This document shows positions 1,147 through 5,093 of a stretch of DNA of 46,300 bases, one piece after another (position 1 is the first letter of the stretch; every line of letters starts with the position of its first letter). Location: positions 1 to 46,300 of the IMG/VR virus record IMGVR_UViG_3300013102_000013; one strand, written 5' to 3'. This DNA comes from a virus. A model generated the notes under the pieces. That model saw only the letters and a program-made list of their open reading frames with translations, ran no database searches and had not been told where the DNA came from. Both the position numbers and the translations under genes were made by a program.

Positions 1147-1536
1147 ATGGACTGGAAACAATCCTACAGTGACATATGCGCTGAACTGAGCATCCTACAC
1201 TTACACGAGTTAGAGCTTAGAAAGCGCTGGGAGAAAGCAAGACAAGCCATGGACGAGCACGTGCTACCGCTGGATAAGGCACTAGAGTATTACAACAGAG
1301 CGGCAGAGATCCTAACGGCACATGTGGAAGAGTGCGAACGTGTAGAAGCCATTAAGAGGGAAATGGAGTCACACATGGAGCAATTCACTAACAAGGCAGA
1401 TGTAATATTGTCCAAACAGATGCAAGGGTATGGACTGAAGGAAATATCAGCAATGACGGGGTATTCTTACGGATATGTTCGGCAAATGGCGGCAAAATAT
1501 AACAAAGAACGAACAGACAATGCAAAGATTTCGTGA
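1147..1536 (+). CDS. Helix-turn-helix protein, possible late-gene regulator
   Basis: 129 residues behind a GGGGAGG ribosome site. Residues 1-90 are a charged helical region. The C-terminal 40 residues contain a sigma-region-4-like helix-turn-helix (GYGLKEISAMTGYSYGYVRQ) and a basic tail. This arrangement, a coiled-coil body plus C-terminal HTH just before the terminase genes, resembles ArpU/RinA-type late transcription activators, but I cannot assign a family. The stop codon overlaps the extended -10 element of the promoter for the non-coding RNA that follows. Late-operon activation is inferred from position only. Confidence 0.7.
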   Translation: MDWKQSYSDICAELSILHLHELELRKRWEKARQAMDEHVLPLDKALEYYNRAAEILTAHVEECERVEAIKREMESHMEQFTNKADVILSKQMQGYGLKEISAMTGYSYGYVRQMAAKYNKERTDNAKIS

Positions 1537-1542
1537 TAAAAT
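1514..1542 (+). promoter_or_regulatory. Promoter of the structured RNA/tRNA unit
   Basis: An extended -10 element (TGATAAAAT, 1534-1542) has a CAGACA -35-like hexamer 17 bases upstream at 1514-1519. The predicted start near 1549 falls just before the first long hairpin of the non-coding region. The -10 overlaps the stop codon of the upstream gene, as expected for an independently transcribed RNA. Predicted from sequence only. Confidence 0.5.
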
Positions 1543-1645
1543 GTAATTGTGAGGTAGTAAGACACGGTAACGCGCGAACCGCCCCTTGTCTTGCTACCTT
1601 GCCCACCTCATTCCTCCGGGGAGCAGCCGATGTTCCCCAAAACAT

Positions 1646-1719
1646 GCTCACTTAACTCAGCCTGGTAGAGTAATCGCCTTATATGCGATCAGTCGGTGGT
1701 TCAAGTCCATCAGTGAGTA
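1646..1719 (+). tRNA. tRNA-Ile, anticodon UAU
   Basis: A complete cloverleaf can be drawn. Acceptor GCTCACT (1646-1652) pairs with AGTGAGT (1712-1718), with one G-U at the end. D stem is ACTC/GAGT. Anticodon stem ATCGC (1673-1677) pairs with GCGAT (1685-1689) round the loop CTTATAT, with anticodon TAT at 1680-1682. T stem GGTGG/CCATC encloses the loop TTCAAGT. The discriminator base is A and CCA is not encoded. It would read AUA directly, whereas most bacteria use a lysidine-modified CAU tRNA for that codon. It lies inside the larger structured transcript. Confidence 0.88.
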
Positions 1720-2192
1720 TAAACTTGGGGCGTGGGCCGAACAAATTCGGCGGTGTAGATCCACGGAACGGCATGAAGCGGCAACCGTTCACATTTATAC
1801 GTTGAGTAAGGCGCTATAATGGATGGCGGAATATAGACGCAGACGTTAGAGCGAGTTGAGGATGCGATACAGAGAGCCTGCCTTAAGCGGCGGACGATGT
1901 ATACAGTAGCTGGCCCTCGTTCAAGGGTGAGAGTCCCTTGATCCATGAATAGCCCTTTACTGAGCGTGTAAACGTTCTAAGTTGACATGTGCGTTATGAC
2001 GGTTAAGTTCCACTTAACTTAGTACATGTGAGCATGAATCATACTTGGGACTAGGCTAACCTGGGCCTGAGTGCATACTACGACTATTGCAAGATAGCGT
2101 ATGGGGAACCTTATGTAGCTGGTGTGGATTATGTCCGGCGGGGACAAGGCAGAACACTTGACGAGTGATAAGGGTTAGGGTGTTCAATCATT

Positions 2193-2223
2193 AAGAGTAG
2201 CAGATAACCCTGTTACTCTTTTT
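2193..2223 (+). terminator. Rho-independent terminator ending the structured RNA
   Basis: An 11-bp uninterrupted stem (AAGAGTAGCAG with CTGTTACTCTT, one G-U) has a 6-nt loop and runs into TTTTT at 2219-2223. It lies 23 bases before the next start codon and defines the 3' end of the tRNA/ncRNA transcript. Confidence 0.88.
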
Positions 2224-3094: not shown

Positions 3095-3109
3095 AGGGAG
3101 GTGAACACA

Positions 3110-3595
3110 ATGGCAGGAAGACCAAGCAGATATAAAGCAGAGTATGCGGAACTAGCTTACAAGTTCTGTTTGCTTGGTGCTGATGATAACAGACTAGCTG
3201 AAATGTTTGAAGTGGATGTATCAACTGTTAATCGTTGGAAGCTTGCGCATGCATCATTTTGCGAGTCCATAAAAAGAGGTAAAGAGATAGCTGACGCTAA
3301 TGTGGCCCAACAACTCTATCATAGGGCTACTGGTTACAGCCATCCTGAGGTTATTACAGCTTCTTACCAAGGACAGATTACCGACAAGGTAGAAGTTGTA
3401 AAACATTACGCGCCAGATCCTACAGCAGCTATCTTTTGGTTAAAAAATCGTCAGCCTAAACAATGGAGAGACAAGCAAGACATTGAACACAGCGGCGAGG
3501 TTAAACAGACCGTTAGTCATGACCTCAAACAACTGTCACCGGAGGAGCTGAAGAACCTTGAGCAAATCCTTGCAAAAACTTCCGAGCCTGGATGA
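3110..3595 (+). CDS. terS: Terminase small subunit
   Basis: 161 residues. ATG at 3110 follows GGGAGGTGAACACA. The N-terminus (AGRPSRY) and the helix-turn-helix at about residues 25-50 (RLAEMFEVDVSTVNRWK) match DNA-recognition domains of phage terminase small subunits. The middle holds the frequent NVAQQLYHRATGYSHPE and AAIFWLKNRQPKQWRDK elements. It binds the packaging site and recruits the large subunit. Its 3' end overlaps the large-subunit gene by 38 bases, and this close coupling supports the call. Confidence 0.88.
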   Translation: MAGRPSRYKAEYAELAYKFCLLGADDNRLAEMFEVDVSTVNRWKLAHASFCESIKRGKEIADANVAQQLYHRATGYSHPEVITASYQGQITDKVEVVKHYAPDPTAAIFWLKNRQPKQWRDKQDIEHSGEVKQTVSHDLKQLSPEELKNLEQILAKTSEPG

Positions 3596-5093
3596 AGTCA
3601 GACAAGCTAGGGCTTATGTAGACTTCAGTTACTTTGTAGACTACGACAGCGAGTACAGGGACCGCGAGGGAAAGCACCTTGACGTTTTAGACGAAACGCT
3701 AATGAAAGTCTCTACTGGTGAACTACGGCGTGTCATTGTGACTATGCCCCCACGACATGGGAAGTCGGAGCGAGTATCAAAGAAATTCCCGGCTTGGCAC
3801 GTGGGTAAGAACCCGGAGGATGAAATCATTCTTGCTTCGTATTCCATCGACCTCAGTAGAGGATTCAGCCGGATTGCTCGTGATACACTCAGTGAGCAGG
3901 TGGACATCTTCGGTAGTGTGGTGGATCCCAACAACAAGAGTGCGGAGTCCTGGAGCATTGAGGGACACCGTGGAGGCGTTACTGCTGCAGGTGTAGGAGG
4001 TTCCATCACAGGTAAGGGTGCAAGGATCGCCATCATTGACGACCCTGTGAAGAACGCAGAGGAAGCTAATTCAGAAGTGATGCGAGAAAAGGTGTGGGAA
4101 TGGTACACATCTACCCTATACACACGCTTAACACCAGACGGACGTATCGTAGTCGTTATGACCCGCTGGCATGAAGACGACCTCGTAGGACGGTTACTCA
4201 AGAAAGAAGCAGACGAGTTAAAGGAAGGAACACACGAGGGCGAGCGTTGGACAGTGATCAACTTCCCGGCACTGGCAGAAGACAATGATTTCTTAGGCCG
4301 TGCTGCAGGAGAACCACTCTGGCCGGAGTTTGGCTTTGATGCTAAGCGTATGAGCCAGATCAAGTCCGATGTTGGCTCTTATGTATTCAATGCCTTATAT
4401 CAGCAGAGACCGAGTGCTGCAGGGGGAACCATCTTCCAGCGAAAACATTTCAAGTACTTTGCAGAGGAAACCAAGTATGTGTCCATGCAGTACTTCATTG
4501 TAGGGGATCGGCGATACGAGAAAGATCAGTGCCGCATCTTCCAAACCGTAGACACGGCAAACAGTGAGAAGACGATCAATGACTACTTTGCTGTAACAAC
4601 GTTCTACATCACACCAGACAACGACATCCTCATTTATGATGTATACCGGACACATATCATCGGACCAGATCAAAAGCCGCTCATGAAGGAACTGAACCAC
4701 CGCTACCGTCCATCCTTCCAAGCGATAGAGGACAAGACTTTCGGAACCAACCTCATTCAAGAAATGACCCGCGAGGGAATGACGGTCCTTCCGATCAAGG
4801 TCGATAAGGACAAGGTTACCCGTAGCTTACCCATAGCTGCACGGTATGAGTCAGGGAAAGTGTACCACCGGGAGAACGCACCGTGGTTGACAGACTTTGA
4901 AGACGAGCTACTAAGCTTTCCCCGTGGTAAGCATGACGATCAGGTTGATACGATCTCGATTGCCGGGGAGCTTGTGCATACAATGGTCTATGATGGTACA
5001 CCGTGGACGGCATCGCCAAACTACAAGGACAACAAAAACTTTGATGAAGACGATGACGAACCACAAACAGAAAGGGGCTGGGCCAACTGGTAA
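3558..5093 (+). CDS. terL: Terminase large subunit (packaging ATPase/nuclease)
   Basis: 511 residues from a TTG start with GGAGGAG 10 bases upstream. Walker A PPRHGKS is at about residues 64-70 and Walker B IAIIDDP at about 157-163, followed by the ATPase coupling region (VVVMTRWHEDD). The C-terminal RNase-H-like nuclease shows its acidic positions in QTVDTANSEKT, QAIEDKTFG and GKHDDQVD. The enzyme pumps DNA into the procapsid through the portal and cuts concatemers. Length is normal for the family, and the small subunit (overlapping) and portal (next large gene) flank it. The cutting mode (headful or cos) cannot be read from this gene alone. Confidence 0.95.
   Translation: MSKSLQKLPSLDEVRQARAYVDFSYFVDYDSEYRDREGKHLDVLDETLMKVSTGELRRVIVTMPPRHGKSERVSKKFPAWHVGKNPEDEIILASYSIDLSRGFSRIARDTLSEQVDIFGSVVDPNNKSAESWSIEGHRGGVTAAGVGGSITGKGARIAIIDDPVKNAEEANSEVMREKVWEWYTSTLYTRLTPDGRIVVVMTRWHEDDLVGRLLKKEADELKEGTHEGERWTVINFPALAEDNDFLGRAAGEPLWPEFGFDAKRMSQIKSDVGSYVFNALYQQRPSAAGGTIFQRKHFKYFAEETKYVSMQYFIVGDRRYEKDQCRIFQTVDTANSEKTINDYFAVTTFYITPDNDILIYDVYRTHIIGPDQKPLMKELNHRYRPSFQAIEDKTFGTNLIQEMTREGMTVLPIKVDKDKVTRSLPIAARYESGKVYHRENAPWLTDFEDELLSFPRGKHDDQVDTISIAGELVHTMVYDGTPWTASPNYKDNKNFDEDDDEPQTERGWANW

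Follow-up and report, generated by a model that had tools for sequence, protein, structure and literature searches.

The window analysed here is a 46.3-kb stretch of DNA, positions 1 to 46,300 of the IMG/VR virus record IMGVR_UViG_3300013102_000013, and it belongs to a phage of the Firmicutes type. The region under study, a leader at positions 1549–2223, is placed between an HTH-type regulator gene and the terminase genes. The regulator gene (1147–1536, plus strand) is an open reading frame of 129 aa directly upstream of the leader, with a weak PHROG match of unknown function. The leader is followed by small genes, a putative small-terminase gene assigned by its position (3101–3595), the large terminase gene (3558–5093, Terminase_6N) and then portal and head genes. 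At megablast sensitivity the first 12 kb of the window retrieved no matching phage from an annotated phage collection, and BLAST of the leader region against 50,697 phage records matched tRNAs alone.

A sequence-only reading of this DNA had proposed a large non-coding RNA of about 675 nt, rich in local structure and holding no credible gene. Our analysis upholds this description: the region is strongly folded, parts of it covary, and the list of open reading frames shows just frames of 77–87 aa across it, short ones on both strands. The minimum free energy of the region is −247.6 kcal/mol, with a z-score of −5.8 against shuffled sequences (−4.4 on repeat), which bears out the dense local structure. 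The folding excess is strongest 5′ of the tRNA (z −5.8) and around positions 1786–1982 (z −3.4); the segment 1983–2190, when folded alone, is not significant (z −1.0). The complete tRNA-Ile recognized earlier was confirmed at 1645–1720 on the plus strand, with the anticodon UAU, by ARAGORN and by the Rfam tRNA model (61 bits), and a tRNA-Ile lies at the matching place in L002/L290, L028, L030 and L289 (L-numbers denote the other loci or stretches compared with the window, whose own leader is labeled W).

Directly in front of the leader lies a putative late promoter (1514–1542, plus strand), with a −10 box TAAAAT at 1537–1542, a weak −35 element at 1514–1519 and 9 of 12 matches. The earlier promoter claim stands in part: the spacing of the −10 box to the 5′ hairpin is unchanged in relatives, while promoter-like sites in the region are not above chance (1 found, 3.7 expected). 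The 5′-terminal hairpin (1549–1602, plus strand) was identified by folding and by covariation in 6 sequences, among which 100% of the cells are paired, 9 of the 16 pairs display two-sided change and the covariation score is 0.625, as compared to 0.243 when shuffled. Covariation across homologues, named as a test by the sequence-only reading, is therefore present in this hairpin, and it is also present in the tRNA-like bodies described below. A hairpin module, TGACGGTTAAGT...ACTTAACTTAGT, lies at 1980–2031 (plus strand) and occurs in the leaders L028 and L016 as well. At the 3′ end, the 11-bp intrinsic-terminator hairpin with its T run (2193–2223, hairpin 2193–2220, plus strand) is clear in the fold, as had been claimed, and is identical in the two near relatives L289 and L290; a simple terminator scan did not list this hairpin. 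Folding also places a local 8-bp hairpin at 1618–1638 (plus strand), which competes with the 7-bp pairing of 1632–1638 with 2103–2109 previously suggested to enclose the tRNA. We rejected this enclosing helix, which is at chance level: about 14 such 7-bp matches are expected in 675 nt (our own estimate, 675 squared / 2 / 4^7), its 5′ strand is already engaged in the local hairpin, and the close relative L289 has the same tRNA without the partner region.

We reached the same locus in other phages via relatives of the terminase and of the regulator, relatives of the 129-aa regulator serving as bait for other leaders, and examined 75 regulator loci. Where leaders were read, a −10 box and a 5′-terminal hairpin come first, then a middle part that varies, and a terminator comes last; a tRNA was called in 10 of the 75 loci and a tRNA-Leu-like D-motif found in 19. 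Among relatives, the length and the content of the leader differ module by module. The flanks of L005 and L008 match closely, and between them L005 has a tRNA-like module, about 120 bp long, that L008 lacks. The leaders of the window, L290 (identical to L002) and L289 are largely identical, and each holds a different cassette at the tip of the same long helix; L289 and L290 retain the helix flanks of the window but not its tip; L290 has an additional tRNA-like gene and L289 is without further modules. The cassette of the window (1824–1946) is 94% identical to that of L164/L301, in which the flanks are unrelated. The leader is a string of exchangeable modules, not one fixed fold as in GOLLD or ROOL. 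The closest host-linked leader resides in a prophage of Paenibacillus ottowii, whose regulator is 98.6% identical to that of L005, and related prophages were found in Paenibacillus, with a tRNA-like body in those of P. ottowii MS2379 and P. brasilensis KACC 13842. Altogether, these comparisons demonstrate, at the level of sequence, a predicted separate modular leader RNA encoded where the late region of the phage begins.

Further arrangements were observed in individual leaders. At the helix tip that holds the tRNA-like body in the window, L002 (5023–5075) carries a mini-elbow of about 45 nt with the T-loop TGAGAGT. The same locus also has, at 4756–4850, an ARAGORN call of tRNA-Phe(AAA) of 94–95 nt that recurs in L304 (580–673); its anticodon region looks abnormal, which makes it a possible second tRNA-like body of non-Leu type. 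In L295 (3597–4050) a single leader combines, in series, a tRNA-Ile with two tRNA-like bodies that differ from each other. At the leader position, L311 (3271–3348) displays a tRNA call whose anticodon loop (gtgg) is unusual and L350 (4571–4664) a tRNA-Leu(GAG) call, the latter being a possible ancestor-like state. Short direct repeats (for example TTGGCAGG and TTTTGCA) lie just 5′ of the leader promoter in L016 (4198–4250), L005 (3749–3800) and L010 (4549–4590) and may be bound by the neighbouring regulator. We discarded the long gaps of L035 and L039, which resembled giant RNAs, as opposite-strand open reading frames occupy them.

The sequence-only reading had overlooked a tRNA-Leu-type body at 1819–1946, which has an acceptor, a D-arm and a T-arm, and in which an 80-nt insert takes the place of the anticodon arm. 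All of its parts are on the plus strand. The 5′ strand of a long helix (1791–1823) ends in the acceptor strand ATGGA (1819–1823), so that the tRNA-like body sits at the helix tip; T8 and the D-arm, TGGCGGAATATAGACGC, follow at 1824–1840 (D-arm 1826–1840), the exact motif being found in 101 viral stretches. The insert occupies 1841–1920, its last base, T, corresponding to tRNA position 48, and precedes a T-arm of 7 bp with the loop TGAGAGT (1921–1941). The 3′ acceptor strand TCCAT (1942–1946) closes the body and continues into the 3′ strand of the long helix (1942–1975), both helix strands being seen in the fold. When constrained to the tRNA-like fold, the body lies 1.9 kcal/mol above the unconstrained minimum (−65.8 versus −67.7), with tertiary contacts not counted. 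ARAGORN called no tRNA at 1819–1946. In an antisense test, the longest exact match of the insert to the window's own genome was 10 nt (shuffle median 11), and the inserts of two prophages gave matches at chance level against phage and host DNA.

The exact D-motif TGGCGGAADATAGACGC was found in 101 stretches of viral contigs, most of which have the same architecture, and a T-arm of one of three types lies 3′ of the D-motif in 92 of 127 motif matches, versus 0.15 in shuffles. Bodies were picked blind to the acceptor; their T-stems had to show 6/7 pairs, so that T-stem pairing percentages are partly selected. The acceptor halves pair at 6/7 positions or more in 91% of type II (n=54), 86% of type III (n=14) and 93% of type I bodies (n=44), as compared to just 15%, 33% and 15%, respectively, when acceptor halves are swapped. 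Across 57 bodies of types II and III, 96.5% of the cells are paired and two-sided changes occur in 283 cells (88 when shuffled); the covariation score is 0.743, versus 0.183 when shuffled and at most 0.167 with slid partners, and most acceptor pairs show all four Watson–Crick types. The D-stem, which was part of the search pattern, is invariant in the sampled set, and one apparently compensated D-stem (ATG/CAT) was seen in L016. A prediction of compensated ATG/CAT D-stems failed: the motif had 12 matches and two uncompensated controls 6 and 3, none of which is a body. Altered 17-mers thus give approximately 3–12 matches, which is the chance level for such motifs, compared to 101 for the true motif. 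A blastn search with two other bodies found nothing.

The two loops of the elbow change together. D-loop GAG goes with T-loop AGNRTGG, GAT/TAT with TGNRAGT and TAGGT with TGCAAAT; further partners are TGT/TGG with TTCRANY and GAT/GTT/TAG with [TA]ATCRAAT. In types II and III, a change of T-loop residues 1 and 5 from T-A to A-T accompanies a change of the third D-loop residue, in keeping with the T54-A58 pair of the T-loop. Given the abundant compensatory change in the acceptor and T-stems and the coordinated change of D- and T-loops, the predicted fold of the body is under selection, and the existence of several alternative elbows argues that the fold itself is selected and not one recognized surface. 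The class is a predicted tRNA-Leu body without the anticodon arm. The acceptor length is 5–13 bp in type II, with no fixed discriminator and a 3′ CCA in few, and the T-stem is 7 bp in types II and III, which brings the acceptor and T stack to 14–16 bp instead of 12. In the type I bodies L082, L097 and L099, A-CCA is encoded immediately 3′ of the acceptor helix, the arrangement of true tRNA genes.

The inserts range from about 13 to 244 nt, are hypervariable and share no common anticodon arm. Their last base (position 48) is T in 98–100%, and the helix that closes them stops some 2 nt short of the T-stem, at the place taken by the variable arm in tRNA-Leu. This closing helix reaches at least 6 bp in 52% of inserts versus 18% of shuffles, and 25% of inserts are pseudoknotted with it versus 7%. 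Similar inserts are found with different elbows (L150/L162 versus L333, 87%) and with different elbows and acceptors (L115 versus L241, 85%; L233 versus L273, 94.5%, both of the latter with paired acceptors). Scaffold and payload exchange independently, and across a broad phage class the predicted body keeps its tRNA core (U8, D-arm, residue 48, T-arm and acceptor helix) and its insert varies freely. Extra T-arms or a seemingly whole small tRNA are nested in the inserts of L097 (2736–2833), L167 (1094–1230), L108 and L111.

Genome records that carry bodies include Paenibacillus, Neobacillus, Chryseobacterium, uncultured Clostridia and Bacilli, Dehalococcoidales and others. One copy per genome was present in the 13 genomes searched, and 5 of 300 genomes of the P. 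ottowii family had a body; such low frequency and single copy are as expected for prophage cargo. Upstream of bodies lie genes for transcription regulators and sigma factors, and downstream genes for small terminases, the best-represented function, and thymidylate synthases. Many bodies are outside late leaders, for instance near thymidylate synthase genes. In L011, a DUF3800-VII RNA (4213–4302) and, on the other strand, a twister-sister ribozyme (2740–2810) lie near a type III body.

The closest kinds of RNA are tRNA mimics, namely YrlA Y RNAs, tmRNA, plant-virus tRNA-like structures and the yjdF riboswitch. Like tRNA-Leu (class II), the bodies have U8, the D-arm GGCGGAA...AGACGC, T48 after a variable-arm-like helix, a T-arm and a closing acceptor helix. 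They differ from tRNA-Leu in that an insert of about 13–244 nt replaces the anticodon arm, the T-loops are non-tRNA, the T-stem is 7 bp (types II and III), and in place of a 7-bp acceptor with A73 and 3′ CCA they have a variable discriminator and rarely a CCA. In tmRNA the anticodon arm of a tRNA body has given way to a long insertion that contains pseudoknots, and in this respect it resembles the bodies; ARAGORN detected no tmRNA in the window, there was no Rfam tmRNA match, and we rejected a tmRNA identity, with neither a model match nor a tag reading frame found. The yjdF riboswitch is a natural RNA homologous to tRNA with a D-loop/T-loop elbow (PMC9142559), and elbow mimicry has been reviewed (PMC4810234). 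Unlike the bodies, yjdF is a ligand-binding mRNA element related to tRNA-Lys rather than a phage cassette bearing a variable insert. The scanned bodies matched no family in Rfam 15, and we found no description of the class in the open papers searched; the class is apparently undescribed. ARAGORN and Rfam miss it because the anticodon arm is gone.

We assign a probability of roughly one half to the reading that the region encodes a modular late-leader RNA, in which a natural, nuclease-resistant tRNA scaffold displays a variable structured payload; the anatomy of this RNA is well supported, while its function is what we infer. The leader RNA would accumulate late in infection, its ends protected by the 5′ hairpin and the terminator, and the tRNA-Ile would be released from it by normal processing. 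The tRNA core would act as a compact nuclease-resistant platform that presents the insert payload in late infection, and payload and scaffold would be swapped between phages by recombination. Several elbow solutions together with a T-stem length foreign to tRNA in types II and III suggest that the requirement is for the fold, not for recognition by a single tRNA enzyme. On a wider scale, we tentatively propose that the anticodon-less tRNA-Leu scaffold, with its at least four interchangeable elbows and its exchanged hypervariable payloads, may constitute a modular RNA effector system, akin in its principle to exchangeable protein effectors, that occurs in phages of Firmicutes, Bacteroidota, Chloroflexota and others.

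The main rival to the scaffold reading is that the body is an anticodon-less decoy, which would occupy a host tRNA-binding factor (an anticodon nuclease or another tRNA-targeting defence, a tRNA enzyme or the ribosome) and be uncleavable at the missing anticodon, the insert adding specificity or bulk. The conserved tRNA body and the absent anticodon are what such a model needs, and the diversity of inserts fits an arms race. We nevertheless regard it as doubtful: the elbow has several alternative sequences, an acceptor and T stack of 14–16 bp (types II and III) instead of 12 is a poor copy for many tRNA enzymes, most bodies are without a 3′ CCA, and that of the window is embedded in a long helix. 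A cis-acting role is unlikely, namely that the element provides processing signals, the transcript being cut by RNase P or tRNA-processing enzymes, or controls transcription or translation of the late (terminase) operon. The leader does sit at the start of the late region, the true tRNA-Ile must be processed out, and a tRNA-like fold in an mRNA leader can enhance translation (PMC9142559). Against this, a terminator lies between the leader and the terminase genes, the acceptor varies between 5 and 13 bp and is not followed by a constant discriminator or CCA, the relative L008 lacks a body altogether, and many bodies do not precede terminase genes.

The other explanations fare worse. Bacterial Y RNAs of the YrlA type, partners of Ro60, are non-coding RNAs with a tRNA-like domain, regarded as tRNA mimics and reported in phages (PMC12282133), a likeness that speaks for such an identity. 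It is nonetheless highly improbable, as the YrlA model RF02553 matched 0 of 6 phage records with type I–III bodies and in a seventh record, a bacterial genome, gave matches below cut-off and away from the body, and as no TROVE/Ro60 gene was present in 24 records including the window, a positive control being detected. GOLLD and ROOL resemble the leader in being ornate, phage-borne RNAs of several hundred nt near or around tRNAs (PMC12286853), and the similar length, the phage setting and the tRNA inside speak for membership; the sequence-only reading had placed the region in or close to these classes, and a member would form an RNA cage. This assignment failed in the Infernal comparison that the same reading had suggested: Rfam cmscan of the region up to E = 10 returned the tRNA alone, plus chance-level matches at E above 1; a direct search with the GOLLD model (RF02032) likewise found nothing at E values as high as 10, and in control genomes its matches were all sub-threshold; and the ROOL model (RF03087) had no match, as was also the case in control genomes, so that this search is weak when taken by itself. 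With no profile match, and with exchangeable modules in series whose length and content vary among relatives, we give membership hardly any credence. As little can be granted to the idea that the bodies are decayed tRNA-Leu genes, even if the D-arm is clearly tRNA-Leu-like and a tRNA-Leu(GAG) call occupies the same leader position in L350, since covariation in the acceptor and T-stems and the coordinated loops indicate selection for the fold, which refutes decay.

If the scaffold reading is true, these bodies would represent a large unrecognized phage class of tRNA-derived non-coding RNAs, and nature would be using the same tRNA scaffold that biotechnologists use for stabilizing RNAs. The hypervariable inserts would then be a new place to seek RNA-based phage effectors or counter-defences, and the function is open to direct testing in Paenibacillus prophages, given the clean exchange of cassettes and the pairs of leaders with and without them.
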